Source: Nitrospirota bacterium
GTDB lineage: Bacteria; Nitrospirota; 9FT-COMBO-42-15; HDB-SIOI813
Direction of reading: 5' to 3'
NCBI GenBank assembly: GCA_020851375.1
Contig: JADZCV010000045.1
Location: 192,046 to 256,045 of the forward strand
Length of the DNA stretch: 64,000 nt
Position 1 is the first letter of the stretch. Every line of letters begins with the position of its first letter. This document shows, in pieces, positions 51,587 to 62,221 of this stretch. A program made the position numbers and the translations under genes. The notes under the pieces are model-generated. The model did not search any database. It saw only the letters and a program-made list of their open reading frames with translations, and was not told where the DNA came from.

Positions 51587-51853
51587 CTACAGAATATTAT
51601 CCACCGGTTTCTTGTCCGCTCCAACTATTTCCTTTTCCAGCCATTTCTCATTACGCGACTTGAATATTATGAGTGAATCCTCCTCATCTTCTTTCATCAC
51701 TTTCTTCGCTCTGACTTTCAGTTCCTCCAGTTTAGCTTCCGTTATTTCCCCCTCGAATACTGAGTTCTGTATGTGATGCAAATAAGTCCTGCATAATTTC
51801 AACATCCTGCCGCACCTTTTCTGGTCTACATCATACACAACAATTACATACAT
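51587..51853 (-). CDS. cas2: CRISPR-associated endonuclease Cas2
   Basis: An 88-residue Cas2, partner of Cas1 in spacer integration. The first strand YVIVVYDVDQKR carries the conserved Asp, followed by NSVFEGEIT. It is the last gene of the cas operon, 86 bases downstream of cas1. Confidence 0.93.
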   Translation of the reverse strand: MYVIVVYDVDQKRCGRMLKLCRTYLHHIQNSVFEGEITEAKLEELKVRAKKVMKEDEEDSLIIFKSRNEKWLEKEIVGADKKPVDNIL

Positions 51854-51939
51854 ATCAATATCCGTTTATACCCTTAATATCAGTCAGTTCAGTTCTGCAG
51901 GTACTAAGTTCAACTACCAAGACTATTCGGGCTGCAGCA

Positions 51940-52932
51940 TTACCACCAGATTTTAAAACCTTCATACTCCTGTTCTCCAATAAGGTGTTTTACTAATTTA
52001 TAGCACTCCAGTCTTATTAAATGCCTGTAAGATACCTGTCTATCAAGCTTTTTATGAGTTATAATAGTCTTGAGTTTTTCATCATATTCTTTGATAACTG
52101 TCTTCCTCCCCTTTTCATTGAGATAACAGAAATTCACCTCAGTCATAAAATCCTTCTCTGATATCTGCTGTCTGTTAAGGATTGTAAATATTATCCTGTC
52201 ACTAAAGATTGGTTTGAATACTTCAGCCAGGTCGAGGCTTAAAGAGAACCTCCTTTCTCCTGGTTCGTGAAGAAACGATATAAGCGGATTTAATTGTGTA
52301 TGGTATATCTCACCAAGACATGTCGTATAGACCAGTGAATTCAGATAAGATATCAAAGCATTTACCATGTTGTCCGGAGGCTGCTTGACCCTCCTCTCAA
52401 ATTCGATCTCCTGATCAATAATAGTTGGCCATGCCTTGTAGTATGCGTTGCGAATATTTCCTTCTATTCCCATCAGCCCGTCAACTGAATCAGAACTGGC
52501 TATCTGAGAACTGTATCCTTCAATCGTATTTATTACTCCGCCTAAATCCTTACCCCTGTTGTTATAGTACCTGAGGTTCTTTAGTATATTGAAAGAGGCT
52601 GACTCTATGAATGCACGTGCGAGAGTTATCCTTTTGTTACGATTCGTATAATGATTAACCTGTTTTACGAGGAGCTGGCCTGAGTTCAGCGTCTCACGCG
52701 GATAGTAACTGCCGGAATAGAATCCATAATAGTTGAATATATGTACTGCTATCCCCTTTTGAGCGAGATAATTAAACAGCTTGGTATTAAAGTCAATCTC
52801 ACCAAACGCATAGATAGACTCAGTGTTCTCAATAGGTATGACAGACCTCGACCCATCTTCTTTTTCAAAAAAGATGGTATTCTCCTGCCTTTTAAGGCGT
52901 CCGCTATTGAAGATGTAAAAGTTTTGCTTCAT
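51940..52932 (-). CDS. cas1: CRISPR-associated integrase Cas1 (type I-B)
   Basis: A 330-residue integrase that inserts spacers. Start at ATG 52932, which overlaps the cas4 stop as ATGA; a GTG at 52941 is also open. GLMGIEGNIRNAYYKAW contains the conserved catalytic Glu, and HEPGERRFSLSLDLAEVFKP the His and Asp. Type I-B-like in sequence. Confidence 0.95.
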   Translation of the reverse strand: MKQNFYIFNSGRLKRQENTIFFEKEDGSRSVIPIENTESIYAFGEIDFNTKLFNYLAQKGIAVHIFNYYGFYSGSYYPRETLNSGQLLVKQVNHYTNRNKRITLARAFIESASFNILKNLRYYNNRGKDLGGVINTIEGYSSQIASSDSVDGLMGIEGNIRNAYYKAWPTIIDQEIEFERRVKQPPDNMVNALISYLNSLVYTTCLGEIYHTQLNPLISFLHEPGERRFSLSLDLAEVFKPIFSDRIIFTILNRQQISEKDFMTEVNFCYLNEKGRKTVIKEYDEKLKTIITHKKLDRQVSYRHLIRLECYKLVKHLIGEQEYEGFKIWW

Positions 52933-53438
52933 ATCCAGCACAACTCCCCATAACCGCAGTTCTTGCAGATCTTTCTCTTATCTGCTGATGGAGGTGTTGA
53001 AGCCCCGGTAATATCCCTGATCTCTTTCAGGATAGCCTCTATCTTCTCATCATCTCCTGTTTCCAGATATACATCCTGTGTCTTCCTGAGTTTGGGATAA
53101 TTTATCTTTCCGGTTATACCCTCGACACCCTTTTGTTTAAGATACCAGATATAATATTTCAACTGCCATATATGGGGTTCCTCAACCTTGTCAGACTTTT
53201 TAACCTCATGTATTACCCTGTCCTTGCTGATAAAATCTATCCTTATGGTGTCATCAATATCAATCTCCTTTTTCTCGCGCTCATATGAGTTTTCATGAAT
53301 CAGCTTGCCCAGATATACTGCATCACTATTCTGCTCCATTTGAATATAATGGCTGAAATACCACAGCTTCTTCCTGCAGAGAAAGTAATAATTTATTTCC
53401 GTGCCGGTGAAACGGATATGGGTAATAGCATCGTCCAT
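52929..53438 (-). CDS. cas4: CRISPR-associated exonuclease Cas4
   Basis: A 169-residue Cas4 that trims prespacers. One Cys near the N-terminus (NYYFLCRKKLWYF) and three at the C-terminus (KICKNCGYGELCWI) fit the 4Fe-4S cluster. RIDFISKDRVIHEVKKSD holds the nuclease Asp and Lys-like residues. It starts 16 bases after the Doc toxin gene. Confidence 0.9.
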   Translation of the reverse strand: MDDAITHIRFTGTEINYYFLCRKKLWYFSHYIQMEQNSDAVYLGKLIHENSYEREKKEIDIDDTIRIDFISKDRVIHEVKKSDKVEEPHIWQLKYYIWYLKQKGVEGITGKINYPKLRKTQDVYLETGDDEKIEAILKEIRDITGASTPPSADKRKICKNCGYGELCWI

Positions 53439-53454
53439 TATTTTTTAAAGAACG

Positions 53455-53847
53455 CTAAGGTTTGTTATGCAGCTTCTTCAATATTTCTGCAAAGTCCTCC
53501 TTTTTGACTTTGCCTTCTACAAGGGCAAGCATATCTTCATAAAGCCTTCCCTTTGGATCAGAAATGCCTATGCCGTTCATATCAAGAAAAACCAGTGCAG
53601 ATGCCAAAGCAGTTCTTTTATTACCATCAATGAATGGGTGGTTCTGGCAAATATGGAATGCATAAGCAGCGGCCATCTTGTAAATATCATTATGAAGGAA
53701 TTCGCCATGAAAAGAAGCCTGAGGCATTGCTAAAGCAGAAGAAAGGAGATTTACATCCCTGATACCCTGTGAACCGCCATACCGATTGATCTGGTCAGTG
53801 TGGATCTCTATCACCTCCGCAAGTGTGAGAAATAAAATCTCTTTCAT
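53455..53847 (-). CDS. Doc-type toxin (Fic family) of a toxin-antitoxin pair
   Basis: A 130-residue death-on-curing protein. HPFIDGNKRTA (about 67-77) is the Fic/Doc active site, which in Doc phosphorylates EF-Tu. The motif is intact. It starts directly after the antitoxin stop and ends 16 bases before cas4, so it is embedded in the cas operon. Translation coupling with the antitoxin is likely. Confidence 0.9.
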   Translation of the reverse strand: MKEILFLTLAEVIEIHTDQINRYGGSQGIRDVNLLSSALAMPQASFHGEFLHNDIYKMAAAYAFHICQNHPFIDGNKRTALASALVFLDMNGIGISDPKGRLYEDMLALVEGKVKKEDFAEILKKLHNKP

Positions 53848-54075
53848 CTATTCCGCCAGCTTTTTCAAAGTCTTACCATGCCGATTATTTACATTTATCA
53901 ATGACTCACGAAACCGCTTTTCCCTGCTTTTTTCCTTGACCGGTGATATAATAAGGTTTACACCATCCGTAGTAATTTCAAGAGGCGTATCCATATCAAC
54001 TTTGAGAATGTCCAATATCGGCTTGTCAATTATTAATGCTGCGCTGTTGCCATGTGTAATAAGCTTTTTTATCAT
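53848..54075 (-). CDS. AbrB/MazE-type antitoxin
   Basis: A 75-residue protein with an N-terminal swapped-hairpin domain (LITHGNSAALIIDKPILDIL, then PLEITTDGVNLIISPV) and a charged C-terminal tail that probably blocks Doc. GGGGGTGAATA precedes the ATG. AbrB-Doc pairings are known. The tandem operator-like repeat upstream suggests autoregulation. Confidence 0.85.
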   Translation of the reverse strand: MIKKLITHGNSAALIIDKPILDILKVDMDTPLEITTDGVNLIISPVKEKSREKRFRESLINVNNRHGKTLKKLAE

Positions 54076-54087
54076 TATTCACCCCCG

Positions 54088-54117
54088 AATATAATCTACA
54101 TTGTATCTACATTGTAT
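54088..54117 (-). promoter_or_regulatory. Tandem 11-base repeat upstream of the antitoxin gene
   Basis: CTACATTGTAT occurs twice head to tail at 54096-54106 and 54107-54117, just upstream of a TATATT-like -10 (minus strand, 54088-54093) and about 20 bases from the antitoxin ATG. This is the layout of an operator for antitoxin autorepression. Confidence 0.65.
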
Positions 54118-54242
54118 CATCTATTTAATATAAAATCATTTCTTGCTCCCTGCAATGCTTCTTAACTTCTTCCTGTAGCCAAATGCAACATTAATATCCA
54201 CAAATTCAGTATGTCCTGCCGGCAATAGTACGTAAGTAAAAT

Positions 54243-54308
54243 GTCATGCCTGCGAAAGCAGGCATCCAGAAGGCTGGCATTACTGGATTCCCGCTTTCGC
54301 GGGAATGA
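54243..54308. repeat. Two family A hairpins in inverted order
   Basis: GTCATGCCTGCGAAAGCAGG... and its approximate reverse complement ending GCGGGAATGAC, separated by about 12 bases. Each half is a hairpin, and the halves also pair with each other. The core matches the insertion at 1362-1392. Confidence 0.75.
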
Positions 54309-54344
54309 CGGTTTGTCATTATACTTATGACCTTCTTAGTATGA

Positions 54345-54888
54345 TCAAATCCACGTCATCTTATCAATACAGATTTCTTATATTTCTTCCCGCTGCCGCA
54401 CGGGCAAGGATCATTGCGTCCCATCTTTGGATAAATGAAAATGTACAGGCATCTGTATCAGGGTTAGAAATTGTGATAGCGGCAAGCCCCTCAATGCCTA
54501 TTGAACGTATATACCAATCAGAGGTCTTATCACTTGCAATAGACTTAAGACCAGTCATTGCAACCATACCTATCTTCCCCAATATAGAAGGTAACACATC
54601 AGAAATCCAATCACAGTCGTAGACCACTGCCCATCTCATACCTTTTAGAAGCGGTAAAACAACTCCTTTTCCTCCGATACCGCCGAGAATATACATGGCA
54701 TGAACTACTGCCCACCATTCCGGCAGGGGCTTTGTCCATTTGTATTGACCAGATACAATCTCGGAAAGCGGATCTATCATCCTCTCCCACCGCTTTATGA
54801 ACTCATCCACCGCAGCACGAGGCAGACGATCCTCCTCGGTAAAGAGAAGATTTAATAAGTCATCGTCAGAAAGGGTTTGGTATTTCAT
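54345..54888 (-). pseudogene. Decayed SEC-C-motif protein gene
   Basis: The main frame (ATG 54888) encodes about 175 residues of helical, HEAT-like sequence ending in an abnormal tail. In another frame at the 3' end lies [16 protein letters not shown], the SEC-C zinc motif, reached only by a frameshift near 54430. The motif then reads SV in place of the usual CC; adding one G would give CC and a stop at 54345. Two single-base lesions thus separate the gene from an intact SEC-C protein. It lies between cas3 and the toxin-antitoxin pair. Sequencing error cannot be excluded. Confidence 0.65.
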
Positions 54889-54939: not shown

Positions 54940-57162
54940 TCAATCAATTATTCCTAAACCTTTCTCCATCTCATCTATCAATAAACCAACTTTGTCATCA
55001 TATCGAACATCAGCCACCCAATATCCTTCACTTCTTCTGGATAGACGATTTGTTTGCCGAAGCTTGGCCCCTTGGCCAAATGAAATTGATGCAAGGAAAC
55101 GCATGGCCTCAAAGTGTTGATTTCTTGCCTTACAATCAAGATATTCGCCTTCAAATCTAATCGGGATTACTTCCATGGATCGGATCAAGTCGTAAAAGTC
55201 ATCTTTATCATCAGAATCGTAAAATGGAGTTAATGAAGCAATAACTCTCCTGAATGAATATAAGGCGCTCTGAAATTCAGCCTCCTCCTTACTGTTGTAT
55301 CCTTGAGCGTAGACCTGTTCCACCTTCCTACACACAGCATCTTCAGTTAACTCCTCACCGTCACGGAAACATTCGACAGTTTTTAAAACTCTCTCTATGT
55401 CATAAAAGTATCTGTCCTTTTCAGAACCCATCGTACATATATGAACAGGCACAACCCCCTTGCTACCCTTTCTGTTAACCCTTCCAAGACGCTGAAGCAA
55501 GGCATCAATCGGGGCAGGTTCGGTGAGGATTGTGTCAAAATCAATGTCCAGGGACACTTCGATGGCTTGGGTACCAACAAGCAATTGAACTTTATCGATA
55601 TTCTTTTCTTTATTCTCCCTATCCCGTAAAATAAACCTTCCGTGTAAAAGTTCTGCTGAATCCGAATAATCTCTTAACGACGAGTATAGTTCTTGTGCTC
55701 GTTTGACTGTATTAGAGACAACAAGCACCCTACTGCCTTTTTGCAGCTCCGATCTCATTATTTCAACATGAGAGGTTATGTCGCCATCCAACATCCTAAC
55801 TCGATGCCTTGGAGTCCGTATTAACTTCTCTCCATCAATATCCCCAATCTCTGGCCCGACTACATTCATTCGGGGCAAAATCTTTTGAATCTTTTCCTTT
55901 AAGAATTTTGGAAACGTCGCTGAAAGAAACAGAAACCTCGCATCAATCCTTGCAAGTTCCTCTATAACTCCAATGATGAGTGCGGTGACGTGAGGGTCGT
56001 AAGCATGAATCTCATCAAAGATAAAAAGTCCTCCAGCCATTTCCGATATTTGACTTTCCCAGCCTTTTACCCCGAAAAAAGCCTTGACTATCTGAAAAGG
56101 TGTGAGCACCTTAATAGGGCGGTAGAGCTTTTTTGATAAATTCTGCGTTTCCCTTGCAAAGGCTGCTGCATTTTCAGGTGAATAATCTCTGTCCAAAAGA
56201 GTTTTGTATGCAAAATAAGTGGCTTTGCCATGGAGCACTCCAACATTTTCCTCGCCGAAGCGTCCCGACAATCTTGAGAACATGGCGTTTATACTTGCAG
56301 TATATGGAAGAACATAATATATCCGGCGTCCGCTGTCCTGATTATTCCCGGCCCAAAGGAGGCTTGCCTCAGTCTTGCCGGAACCTGTCGGCGCGGATAG
56401 AAAGGCACTGCCGGAGATCATGCCTGTCCTTGACTGGTATGGTCTGAACTGGCTAATCCCAAGTTTTGATGCAGTGTCCTTGATGCCTGCCACTATCTCG
56501 TTTTTCCCGCCGGACGCCAGATGGTCGCAGGCTATAAGAAAGCCCCGGAGAAAAGTCGGATATAATGGGTTCGCAATCGGTCTTTCTCCATCTTCTAACG
56601 CGTTTGCATACCACCTGATAAACCTTTGATAAGGGTCTATCATGGCATCCTGTCGAACAGGCAGTTTAAAACTGACACTGTCTGTGCCAAGATAGCGGAC
56701 TGCTGCATCTTGCAGGTATTCTATAAACTGATTTATCCCGTCAAGGTTTTCAACCAATTCCCTGATCCTGGCTTCATAAACTTCTTTGCCAATCGGTGAT
56801 GTAGTATTGAATCTCTCACGCAGTTCTGAAACTCCCTTGTGGTGTGTTGCGATAGCAAGCGCTATAGCCTTTGTAGTTATATCATCGTATGGCGTCAAGC
56901 CATTTACCAACGCTGCGGAAAGAAGTTCGTGCCTATATCCCCACTGAGTACCGCCGCTTAATTCCCTTTGGAAACCCGAAGCGCTCTTCCCAACGTCATG
57001 CAGAGCAACCGCGGCAAACAGATGGTCAAAGAACCTGGGAGCGCCGCACAAGTCCGGCAGAAACGGATAGTTTTCCCGCACGCTGTTAAATACCATAAGG
57101 CAGTTTCCAGTGTGTTCTACAAGCGTCTCCGGTGGTGAGGACTTTGCGAGAAGTTCAGTCAT
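54940..57162 (-). CDS. cas3: CRISPR-associated nuclease-helicase Cas3
   Basis: A 740-residue Cas3 that degrades targets marked by Cascade. N-terminal HD nuclease (ALHDVGKSASGFQREL, about 50; YRHELLSAAL), then the SF2 helicase: SAPTGSGKTEASLLW (about 258), IFDEIHAYDP (about 382), FLSATFPK and QRLGRVNRKG. All motifs are intact. Its ATG overlaps the cas5 stop. Confidence 0.94.
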   Translation of the reverse strand: MTELLAKSSPPETLVEHTGNCLMVFNSVRENYPFLPDLCGAPRFFDHLFAAVALHDVGKSASGFQRELSGGTQWGYRHELLSAALVNGLTPYDDITTKAIALAIATHHKGVSELRERFNTTSPIGKEVYEARIRELVENLDGINQFIEYLQDAAVRYLGTDSVSFKLPVRQDAMIDPYQRFIRWYANALEDGERPIANPLYPTFLRGFLIACDHLASGGKNEIVAGIKDTASKLGISQFRPYQSRTGMISGSAFLSAPTGSGKTEASLLWAGNNQDSGRRIYYVLPYTASINAMFSRLSGRFGEENVGVLHGKATYFAYKTLLDRDYSPENAAAFARETQNLSKKLYRPIKVLTPFQIVKAFFGVKGWESQISEMAGGLFIFDEIHAYDPHVTALIIGVIEELARIDARFLFLSATFPKFLKEKIQKILPRMNVVGPEIGDIDGEKLIRTPRHRVRMLDGDITSHVEIMRSELQKGSRVLVVSNTVKRAQELYSSLRDYSDSAELLHGRFILRDRENKEKNIDKVQLLVGTQAIEVSLDIDFDTILTEPAPIDALLQRLGRVNRKGSKGVVPVHICTMGSEKDRYFYDIERVLKTVECFRDGEELTEDAVCRKVEQVYAQGYNSKEEAEFQSALYSFRRVIASLTPFYDSDDKDDFYDLIRSMEVIPIRFEGEYLDCKARNQHFEAMRFLASISFGQGAKLRQTNRLSRRSEGYWVADVRYDDKVGLLIDEMEKGLGIID

Positions 57163-58837: not shown

Positions 58838-60172
58838 TTAGGAAACAGAAACCTCTTCAGACTCTTCTTCAATCTCGACAACCCCCTCGGAAATAAGCCA
58901 CTGATGGAGCACTTCATAAAGCCTAAAAAGGAGCAAATCCTGAGTCTCCCTCCAGTTCATGACTCCTTCCGGGAAAAAGGATTCGACATAATCCTCATAT
59001 GTAAAGAGCGGAACATCCCCCTTCAGTGCTACACGGTCCCTCATCAGGCGAAGCAACACGTTTCGCAGCGAGGCGTAACTTTCCGCTCTTTCAAGCTGTC
59101 CAAGCCGCTTCTTGCCATTGGATGAAGTCTTGACTATCTCAGCTATCTCGTCACCCAACTTCCGAATGGCCTCAATCCTTTTTTCATCCATCCTTCTCAC
59201 CTCCTTCAAGTAATATTTCAGAAGATTCCAATCCCCTATTGCCTCTTTTGCCTTGTTGTTCAAGAAGTATTTCACAATTGACCTGCCTTCAAGTAACGAC
59301 AGGTACACGGAATTTTTATAATTCCTGTATTCATCCTCCTTCTTTCCAGTCAAGTCCTTGTTATAACCTTTACGGACGACCTTCTGCCAGTCCCTGTACC
59401 TTGGATGAGGGCGAATATAAGCAAGGAACCGGAAAACCTGAGCAGGCAGATCATAAATATCCAAGTCCGCTCCTTGATTATAGTTTGTAAAATGATACAG
59501 ACGAATGGAGGCGTTCTCATCAATCCACCTTTCATCATATGAAAGTATAAGGTCTTGTATTATGTGAAATAGGGCATTGGTCGCATTTGAGTATTGCTCA
59601 TTAAAACAACCTGAATAATTCCTTGTAGCAATCTGCTTTTGGACATCTGCAATACAACGCTTTGCCCAGAATCTCATTATCTTTGGCGAACTGGAATGAA
59701 GGAGCAGAAGTTTTCCGCAAGCGTAGTAAACAAGAGGCGAACATTGAACTGCAAAGGTACAGGCATCGCAGTAGTCCGCTCCTTCAGTTTTAAAGGAGAA
59801 GAAATGCGAGCCTTCATAACCGGTCAAAGGAACATCCATTCTGTTTTTCCCATTAACCACCTTTCTTCTTCCGCAAGCGATGCAATTCCCTTTATCACCC
59901 ATTGGTAAAATGCCTTCCGTAAAATTTTTATAATGCTCGGCTAATCTATGCTTCTTATCCTTAACCGCAGGGTTTGTTATTGGATTATTAGGAAAAACTG
60001 AAAAAAGATTCCTTTTCCAGCCTTCTGAGAGGTAAATATCCTGTATAGTTTTAGACATTTCTGCAATGTCGTCATTGCTTATTTCTTCAGGACTGGTTTT
60101 ATATCGCCACTCTATTATTGCAGCCAGCCCAGCATCCACCCACAGATTCCCTGTCCATGCGAATAACTGCAT
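58838..60172 (-). CDS. cas8: Cascade large subunit Cas8 (Cst1-like)
   Basis: A 444-residue large subunit, expected to read the PAM. The N-terminus FAWTGNLWVDAGLAAI fits Cst1 (Cas8a1), and CIACGRR (about 97) with YCDACTF (about 135) form a probable zinc site. Start at ATG 60172, because GGAGGG is 5 bases upstream; a frame from 60265 would run into the degraded ORF6N tail. It precedes cas7 by 25 bases. Confidence 0.85.
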   Translation of the reverse strand: MQLFAWTGNLWVDAGLAAIIEWRYKTSPEEISNDDIAEMSKTIQDIYLSEGWKRNLFSVFPNNPITNPAVKDKKHRLAEHYKNFTEGILPMGDKGNCIACGRRKVVNGKNRMDVPLTGYEGSHFFSFKTEGADYCDACTFAVQCSPLVYYACGKLLLLHSSSPKIMRFWAKRCIADVQKQIATRNYSGCFNEQYSNATNALFHIIQDLILSYDERWIDENASIRLYHFTNYNQGADLDIYDLPAQVFRFLAYIRPHPRYRDWQKVVRKGYNKDLTGKKEDEYRNYKNSVYLSLLEGRSIVKYFLNNKAKEAIGDWNLLKYYLKEVRRMDEKRIEAIRKLGDEIAEIVKTSSNGKKRLGQLERAESYASLRNVLLRLMRDRVALKGDVPLFTYEDYVESFFPEGVMNWRETQDLLLFRLYEVLHQWLISEGVVEIEEESEEVSVS

Positions 60173-60200
60173 AAGCCCTCCATAAAAAAAGTTATAAAAT

Positions 60201-60677
60201 CTAAAGTGCTTCCTTACGGTTGGCAGTCCTGTATTTTGCACTACGCTCTTTGGCAACGAATCCAATCTTCCTTTTCTTCGGCTCCGTATGGCAAAGAACC
60301 GCCAAAATATTTCCAGTGTGGTATCACATTTTGTGATACCAGTTTTTCAGGTATGGACAACTGCTTCCATACTACTACACATCCTCTCAGAAACCTACTC
60401 TTTCGTCTTCTGGTCTCTACATTCATACATTGTAATCTACGCAACTCCATGCCTTCCCTGTCCAATTAAAGGCGTAGGGAAGATACTTGCTGTGTTGTCC
60501 CCTTTTTAAGGTGACAATCTGGCACCTTAAAAGTTCATGGTATTCTTCTTTAGTTAATTGAAACATGAAGTCATGGGGGAATCGTTCAATATTTCTTTTA
60601 ACAGCACGATTAAACATCTTGTTTTCAACTCCATAAAGCACTGATAGGTCCTTGTCCTGCATTACCTTTCTGCTCAT
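60201..60677 (-). pseudogene. Mosaic of broken ORF6N-domain gene copies
   Basis: Three pieces of ORF6N-type genes in one stretch. 60677-60423 encodes the N-terminal half (MSRKVMQDKDLSVLYGVE, FPHDFMFQL, CQIVTLKRGQ, KYLPYAF) and then goes out of register. About 60370-60285 encodes a middle piece of a different variant (EKLVSQNVIPHW, YFGGSLPYG). 60284-60201 encodes the C-terminal tail (EPKKRKIGFVAKERSAKYRT), matching the end of the intact gene next door. None is complete. This debris plus the fragment at 60727-60840 accounts for the 663 bases between cas8 and the intact ORF6N gene. Confidence 0.75.
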
Positions 60678-60726
60678 GCCTCCTTGCGTCTCGCTGTTTT
60701 ATATCTTGCGCTGCCTTCTCTCACTG

Positions 60727-60840
60727 TTATGTGAGCGCATATGGCAGATAACGGCGACCGCCCCACAAACTTGAAGTCGCAAAATGCGACCTCAAGTTTT
60801 CATATTCATCATGATTCAACTGAAACATAAAATTATCAGG
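60727..60840 (-). pseudogene. ORF6N central fragment
   Basis: Encodes PDNFMFQLNHDEYENLRSHF and ATSSLWGGRRYLPYALT then a stop, which is the central part of an ORF6N domain of a third variant. It begins on the stop codon of the intact gene. Confidence 0.7.
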
Positions 60841-61384
60841 AGCTATGACGGGCAGCCCTGTATTTTGCGCCACGCTCTTTGACAACAAACCCGATCCTTT
60901 TTTTCTTCGGCTCCGGCGGTGATAGCAACTGCTTTATCGCATCAAACACTATTTTGAACTGATGGTCATACTTCTTTTCCATCTCTTCTATTTTCTTCTG
61001 CAAATCCTTATGCGTAGCAATCATCTCTCTGAGCCTTGTAAATGTCCTCATTATCTGGATATTAACAGTTATTGCTCTTTCACTACTAAGAACACTTGAT
61101 AACATTGCAACACCATTTTCAGTAAATGCATACGGCAGGTATTTAACATTCTTTCCTTTCTTCAAGGTCACAAATTGTGACCTTGAAAGTTCTGAGGCTT
61201 CGTCCCAACTCAACTGAAACATAAAATCATCGGGAAAACGGTTAATATTCCTTTTGACCGCCTGATTCAGAACTTTGGTTTCAACTCCATAAAGCGCTGC
61301 CAGGTCCTTGTCCAGCATTACCCTTTTACCCCTGATCATAAAAATCTTTTGCTCAAGGATTTCATCCGCTACCATTGCCTGCAT
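60836..61384 (-). CDS. ORF6N-domain protein
   Basis: A 182-residue protein. The ORF6N domain (about 8-105) has MLDKDLAALYGVETKVLNQAV, FPDDFMFQLSWDEASELSRS, QFVTLKKG and LPYAFTENGVAMLSSVL. A coiled coil (about 110-150) and a basic tail follow. Such domains occur in phage antirepressors and chromosomal relatives, often thought to bind DNA. The ATG lies directly after the cas6 stop, so the gene is embedded in the cas operon. A 27-base DNA palindrome (61161-61187) covers the SRSQFVTLK codons. Confidence 0.85.
   Translation of the reverse strand: MQAMVADEILEQKIFMIRGKRVMLDKDLAALYGVETKVLNQAVKRNINRFPDDFMFQLSWDEASELSRSQFVTLKKGKNVKYLPYAFTENGVAMLSSVLSSERAITVNIQIMRTFTRLREMIATHKDLQKKIEEMEKKYDHQFKIVFDAIKQLLSPPEPKKKRIGFVVKERGAKYRAARHSS
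61161..61187. repeat. Palindrome inside the ORF6N gene
   Basis: Perfect 12-base arms (TTCAAGGTCACA and its complement) around a 3-base centre. Homologous sites in the broken copies also carry palindromes, at 60767-60799, 60504-60532 and 60319-60341, with different arm sequences. Confidence 0.85.
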
Positions 61385-62221
61385 TTATTCCATCCTTTCC
61401 ACATACCCGCACCCCATGCTGTTGTTCTGGCCAAATCCGCATTCAAGACCAATCCTTATCAATTCTTTTGACCCGCTGACAGAGAAGGGCTGGAGTGTCC
61501 CTTTTATTTCACCTGCGATCTTTCCATCTTTATAGACCTTAAATGATTTTATTAATTTCCCTTTTGCCGGATGATGTTCGAATCCAGGCTGGTCTCCCTC
61601 ATAAGGCTTTCCATAGAGGGTTTCATACTTGTGAATCAGGTTTTGATTGAGGAGTTTTTCATAATCTTTATCACCAGGGAATAAATATACATCCCGGATT
61701 CCCTGTGGATCAGGTTTTTTGACAAATATGGGAGATTCCAGGGGTATCAGGTTCAATCGAATAAAACCATTTGGGCTGTTTGAATAATTTATATCAATTC
61801 CCTCTAATGGGTCTGCGAGGGTTTCTACACGATATACAATGACCCTTTGACTGCCGATTGTAATCTCCTGCCCCTCTTTGAAGATTCCATCTATCAAGTG
61901 TTGCAGGAATCTATTCACCGGGGATGCAATCTGGAAGGAAAAGGTGAAGGGGATGGCAGGAGATGCCCTGAAGTGAAAACCTGGCAAGCTGTCTGAATTA
62001 TTTAATTTGGTACTTATCGGCCCGTAAAATGTCAGACCGGAATAGACAAAGAATTTGAATCTCTGTTCACGCTTGTATCTGTATCCCTCTTCATGGAGCC
62101 AGCCTGCATAATCCGGATCTGAGTTTGCAAGAAATTTATAGATAACAGCCTGTATCTGGTGCTGATAGTTAAAATCAATCCTTCCATTATCGTCGGCTGA
62201 TAAGGTTATTTTTACTCTCAC
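61385..62221 (-). CDS. cas6: CRISPR RNA endonuclease Cas6
   Basis: A 278-residue Cas6 that cuts the repeats and leaves the 8-base handle. NYQHQIQAVIYKFL near residue 20 carries the likely catalytic His, and the C-terminal GLECGFGQNNSMGCGYV is the glycine-rich loop. GTG start. It is the first cas gene and lies about 100 bases downstream of yebC. Confidence 0.9.
   Translation of the reverse strand: MRVKITLSADDNGRIDFNYQHQIQAVIYKFLANSDPDYAGWLHEEGYRYKREQRFKFFVYSGLTFYGPISTKLNNSDSLPGFHFRASPAIPFTFSFQIASPVNRFLQHLIDGIFKEGQEITIGSQRVIVYRVETLADPLEGIDINYSNSPNGFIRLNLIPLESPIFVKKPDPQGIRDVYLFPGDKDYEKLLNQNLIHKYETLYGKPYEGDQPGFEHHPAKGKLIKSFKVYKDGKIAGEIKGTLQPFSVSGSKELIRIGLECGFGQNNSMGCGYVERME

Follow-up and report, generated by a model that had tools for sequence, protein, structure and literature searches.

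An AbrB-Doc toxin-antitoxin cassette upstream of cas4 in a type I-B cas operon, and the recurrence of toxin-antitoxin pairs at this position

A complete AbrB-Doc toxin-antitoxin (TA) pair lies upstream of cas4 in a type I-B CRISPR-cas locus of the 64,000-nucleotide stretch of Nitrospirota DNA analysed here (the window). Ten other loci, from both bacteria and archaea, also have complete TA pairs upstream of cas4. On balance we regard the window pair as a mobile cassette that settled at a boundary tolerant of insertions; it would be mainly a selfish passenger, with side effects on regulation and stability, and not a component dedicated to CRISPR.

The locus and the antitoxin-toxin pair

On the minus strand the order is cas6, an ORF6N gene and a broken copy, cas8b1, cas7, cas5, cas3, a HEAT/SEC-C remnant, a palindrome, the antitoxin, Doc, cas4, cas1b, cas2 and a long CRISPR array. 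Profile matches indicate a type I-B gene set (cas6, cas8b, cas7, cas5, cas3, cas4, cas1b and cas2). The genes identified by profile are cas8b1/Cst1, Cst2, cas3, cas4, cas1_HMARI, cas2 and cas6, and cas5 was called by position and homology only. The main features are as follows.

61385-62221, minus strand: cas6
58838-60265, minus strand: cas8b1
54940-57162, minus strand: cas3 (profile matches)
54364-54888, minus strand: decayed HEAT/SEC-C gene (tblastn)
54238-54314, no strand assigned: dispersed palindromic (REP-like) repeat with a strong hairpin (inverted repeat)
54111-54139, minus strand: putative TA promoter, with -10 box TACAAT (54116-54111) within the operator and a weak -35 box ATGATT (54139-54134)
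54096-54117, no strand assigned: tandem 11-base repeat, two copies of CTACATTGTAT, each with a TACA-N-TGTA palindrome
53848-54075, minus strand: AbrB/MazE-like antitoxin, 75 amino acids (open reading frame, paired orthologues, predicted topology)
53455-53847, minus strand: Doc toxin, 130 amino acids (PF02661, 1.2e-20; TIGR01550 (DOC_P1), 4.6e-17; both above cut-off)
53439-53454, minus strand: gap of 16 nt between Doc and cas4, without a promoter-like site
52929-53438, minus strand: cas4 (PF01930, 2.7e-58)
51940-52941, minus strand: cas1b (TIGR03641, 1.6e-141)
51587-51853, minus strand: cas2 (PF09827, 9.3e-23)

Both reading frames of the pair are intact and the toxin ends 16 bases before cas4, as a preliminary description of this DNA had reported. 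Its placement of the pair between cas3 and cas4 also stands, with the amendment that the decayed HEAT/SEC-C gene intervenes after cas3. Compared by tblastn with a 298-residue homologue from Candidatus Jettenia, this remnant has lost about 100 codons and its frame is shifted. A HEAT/SEC-C gene is present at the cas3/cas4 junction of anammox relatives as well (L031:7964-8860; L030:8560-9103), and UPF0149/SEC-C proteins occupy the position in L086, L107 and L108. The palindrome, which separates cas3 and the HEAT remnant from the TA pair, has the core ATTCCCGCTTTCGCGGGAAT, about 75 copies in the genome and a hairpin z-score of -5.8. It was rejected both as a terminator and as part of the cassette, being a dispersed repeat without a T-run; at most it could act as an attenuator.

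Between cas6 and cas8b1 (60241-61384) lie the ORF6N-domain gene, which belongs to the PADLOC candidate defence family PDC-S05 (4e-61), and its broken second copy; the same junction holds ORF6N genes, also in several copies, in L108 and L112. Over the adaptation genes (51587-53438), Cas1 is 85-86% and Cas4 73-79% identical to proteins of anammox Planctomycetota (Brocadia, Jettenia), which suggests that the adaptation module was transferred between Nitrospirota and Planctomycetota.

Doc is a canonical short single-domain Fic/Doc protein with an intact HPFIDGNKR motif, and it matched a solved Doc structure in the PDB at 1.6e-13. Its ATG abuts the antitoxin stop codon, and from this adjacency we infer that antitoxin and doc are co-transcribed. 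The antitoxin itself gave no Pfam match, and one member of its five-sequence family reached MazE_antitoxin weakly (0.012). A structural model of moderate confidence (pLDDT 72, pTM 0.46, five sequences) has the AbrB/MazE topology, beta-beta-alpha-beta-beta followed by a long helix; among known folds it matches E. coli MazE in MazEF best, though weakly (E 0.04). Orthologues that are 70-77% identical to the antitoxin each have a Doc partner. Judged by the toxin motif and by the adjacent upstream antitoxin with its predicted DNA-binding domain, the pair is probably a type II TA system of the Doc family.

Doc of phage P1 phosphorylates EF-Tu, halting translation. The window pair resembles the P1 Phd-Doc system in its Doc with an HPFxDxNKR-type motif, in having the antitoxin gene first and in its upstream operator sites, which are putative here; it differs in having an AbrB/MazE-type antitoxin in place of Phd, and in its site, a chromosomal cas operon.

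Regulatory region and mobility of the cassette

The tandem 11-base repeat noted in the preliminary description is exact at 54096-54117, and is likely to be the antitoxin operator. No further CTACATTGTAT site with one mismatch or fewer was found within 64 kb. As 0.8 such sites are expected in 64 kb, two lone single sites would be unremarkable, and it is the exact tandem copy that is remarkable. Upstream of orthologous cassettes that share about 70% identity with the window pair and lie at non-cas sites in the phylum, an operator-like TACAATGTA is kept and the core ATACAATGTA is conserved. Elsewhere in the phylum the block GTGATACAATGT precedes four orthologues of the antitoxin gene, at a nearly equal distance from the start codon, and in these cassettes the second repeat copy is degenerate.

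The candidate TA promoter scores too low to be called by the promoter scan and was read from the sequence together with the orthologues. In two orthologous cassettes TTGACG stands 18 nt before TACAAT, and the operator therefore overlaps the -10 box; the -35 box of the window is weaker. A separate strong promoter directly upstream of cas4 had been named as an observation that would speak against TA control of the adaptation genes, and a consensus scan called no promoter-like site either in the 3′-terminal part of doc or in the 16 nt between it and cas4.

Four further genomes of the phylum contain this cassette, putative operator included, at unrelated, non-cas sites. Its neighbours there include tyrS, thiG and an integrase-like gene, and the flanking sequence retrieved, 0.4-1.5 kb per side, contained no cas genes. 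Conservation of the operator at these copies indicates that it belongs to the cassette and moves with it as a unit. By comparison of these sequences, the pair is a mobile cassette carrying its own regulatory region.

Conservation of the pair in I-B operons, which the preliminary description had proposed as a check, was not borne out. Of 396 genomes of the phylum, 23 contain a close Cas1b (25 loci), and a Doc gene stands beside cas1b in two of the 25 loci only (G000 and G002); these two Docs are 41% identical, as against 86% for Cas1. No orthologue of the window pair was found beside cas genes in the 396 genomes. The AbrB-Doc pair of G002 is 33-41% identical to that of the window and is directed away from cas4, and Candidatus Brocadia AMX1 (L029) and Scalindua rubra (L053) have pairs of the same inverted family ahead of cas4. 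Because they point away from it, the pairs of G002 and Brocadia AMX1 cannot drive cas4. In Brocadia AMX1 (L029:8684-8926) Doc ends prematurely, ahead of its active site, the antitoxin is intact and cas4-cas1-cas2 stays, so that addiction there appears to have failed or ended, a point that counts against our preferred explanation.

Similarity within the inverted family does not track Cas1: the antitoxins of L029 and L053 are 72% identical and their Cas1 proteins 59%, whereas for G002 and L029 the values are 60% and 88%. These pairs were therefore probably acquired or exchanged separately. In close relatives of the window locus, whose Cas1 is 85-86% identical, there is either no pair or an inverted AbrB-Doc pair that differs from that of the window. 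Among relatives without a TA pair, Jettenia (L031) has the order cas3-HEAT-cas4, and Brocadia pituitae (L028) and L020 have cas3-cas4; an incomplete gene table for three plasmid records that encode a related Cas1b gave no TA pair ahead of cas4. DNA similarity to the relatives stops inside cas4 and the HEAT remnant, and the boundaries of the TA insertion could therefore not be placed.

Toxin-antitoxin pairs upstream of cas4 in other loci

A Cas1b-alignment scan of a genome collection, combined with the loci of the phylum, yielded 97 loci after removal of recognised duplicates. TA families were named from Pfam tallies per position and from direct scans for ten proteins, and tally entries were matched to single open reading frames by reading the sequences. 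The complete pairs upstream of cas4 outside the window were:

G002: AbrB-Doc
L029: MNT-HEPN, and AbrB-Doc with a broken toxin
L053: AbrB-Doc
L055 (archaeon): AbiEi-AbiEii
L065: DUF2281-MazF
L068: MazE-MazF and Phd-RelE
L077: MNT-HEPN
L098 (archaeon): MNT-HepT
L107: AbrB-VapC
L122: VapB-VapC and AbrB-VapC

With the window left out and the inverted family counted once, nine of ten modules lie on the cas4 strand (P 0.011). Eight loci, the window among them, have at most about 50 nt between the module and cas4, to the extent that cas4 starts could be placed. The junction is also entered by inserts other than TA genes (UPF0149/SEC-C, AAA ATPase, ERCC4-like nuclease and IS200-type), and most I-B operons have no TA genes between cas3 and cas4, the median gap being 20 nt. 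The TA class is thus recurrent before cas4 though no single family is conserved, so that, from this survey, position would seem to count more than the particular pair. Orphan TA-like genes were seen in L032 (PaREP1), L074, L075 and L078. A HEPN-MNT pair is known beside a type I-D locus in a cyanobacterium.

The excess was measured against genome-wide toxin counts, with 367 PIN, ParE, HEPN and Doc genes in the 57.5 Mb of the 23 cas1b genomes as background; a Pfam tally of the flanks, which covered 25 of 195 families, was rejected as a background rate. The 1 kb upstream of cas4 contains a toxin gene in 5 of the 25 phylum loci, as against 0.16 expected (P 8e-7), and in 4 of 24 with the window left out (P 2e-5); these P values are indications only, since the window was chosen for its pair, the 1-kb interval was set post hoc and the loci are phylogenetically non-independent. 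Read with the same reserve, the values become 0.001 (5/25) and 0.008 (4/24) under an assumed five-fold local enrichment of toxins, and 0.02 and 0.07 under a ten-fold one.

Complete pairs occupy 7 of 85 observable junctions upstream of cas4 and none of 138 effector-core junctions (Fisher P 0.001). They also occur at 3 of 95 cas4/cas1 junctions, which is not significantly different from 7 of 85, and between cas6 and cas8 in L077, L108 and L109. The feature common to these sites is a module boundary, and a permissive boundary may explain much of the distribution. Recurring GxxExxY/PDDEXK_3 nuclease-like genes were seen in the cas4/cas1 gap of L031, L038, L089 and L104. TA-like genes are found at other CRISPR loci of these genomes too; at L128:6555-7482 an AbiEii-like nucleotidyltransferase and a small partner precede cas2-cas1 in another CRISPR locus of the same genome.

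Possible consequences for the adaptation genes

The explanation that we prefer is that a self-regulated type II AbrB-Doc cassette landed between the interference (cas8-7-5-3) and adaptation (cas4-1-2) modules, inserted along the direction of transcription, and now heads the adaptation operon. The genes cas4-cas1-cas2 would then be transcribed at least partly from the TA promoter, itself presumably repressed by the antitoxin or the antitoxin-toxin complex, and stress that degrades the antitoxin would raise their expression. Loss of the segment would leave free Doc; the cassette would persist for this reason, and its persistence would incidentally stabilise the neighbouring cas genes. TA control of cas4-cas1-cas2 and addiction are both plausible, and the anatomy of the locus makes a response of the adaptation genes to the TA promoter likely. 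It counts against this explanation that cas4 has no clear Shine-Dalgarno sequence and that read-through from cas3 could serve it.

A possible but more doubtful reading is that the pair is a neutral passenger, with no control over the cas genes and no protective effect on them, at an insertion-tolerant boundary where two transcription units of a defence island meet. TA cassettes are common in such islands, and the pairs at cas6/cas8 and cas4/cas1, the other gene classes sharing the cas3/cas4 junction, the TA-like genes at other CRISPR loci of the same genomes and the inverted pairs of G002, L029 and L053 all fit it, as does an excess that is unremarkable if toxins are locally enriched ten-fold. 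It accounts less well for the cas4-strand bias, the short gaps to cas4 and the large excess over the genome background.

We regard it as unlikely that the I-B cas3/cas4 boundary is a recurrent docking site at which interchangeable TA pairs capture the adaptation promoter, giving one autoregulated switch for spacer acquisition and growth arrest. Quite unlikely, too, is a dedicated coupling of dormancy to adaptation, in which TA pairs were taken up at the front of the adaptation operon and infection or stress frees the toxin and raises Cas4-Cas1-Cas2, slowing the cell during spacer acquisition; this would be a version, built on a protein pair, of the idea that immunity is coupled to dormancy. 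Independent recruitment of several TA families to one place, in both bacterial and archaeal loci and usually at the start of a cas4-cas1-cas2 operon, speaks for such a coupling, but it is not favoured because most I-B operons lack a pair there, no TA family is conserved, and decayed and inverted copies exist. That the pair is a non-working module, decayed or repurposed as a regulator, is very improbable: the antitoxin has no significant family match of its own, but the frames, the invariant toxin motif, the identity to paired orthologues and the operator are all retained.

TA genes within cas cassettes are already known. In Sulfolobales, vapBC pairs are interspersed in cas cassettes and were proposed to help to maintain CRISPR-Cas in the population (PMC4390879). 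Those are likewise complete type II pairs, but they are crenarchaeal and of the vapBC family only, the example is type III-D, and the part of that account considered here describes no fixed position before cas4. AbrB/MazE, PIN and HicB genes have been listed as loosely cas-associated (PMC1462988). Makarova et al. (2012) proposed that immunity is coupled with dormancy or suicide and described immunity loci as apparently without typical antitoxins (PMC3506569), whereas the present loci hold complete pairs, antitoxin included. The preliminary description had set the pair beside CreTA of type I-B systems, rightly distinguishing it as a protein pair. The likeness, a toxin activity that would guard an I-B locus against loss, is one of analogy only; CreTA is an RNA toxin with a crRNA-like antitoxin, repressed through Cascade, and here there are two proteins and no apparent antitoxin-Cascade link. 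A 2025 review of CreTA, CreR and CrePA does not mention cas4 (PMC12737573). We found no report of a recurrent TA position before cas4 in the open-access literature, which is weak evidence of novelty.

If TA promoters do drive cas4-cas1-cas2, spacer acquisition would follow the stress signals that degrade antitoxins, and a protein-based addiction would hold the adaptation genes in place. Such an arrangement would constitute a general link between TA systems and CRISPR memory, in bacteria and archaea, independent of any one TA family.
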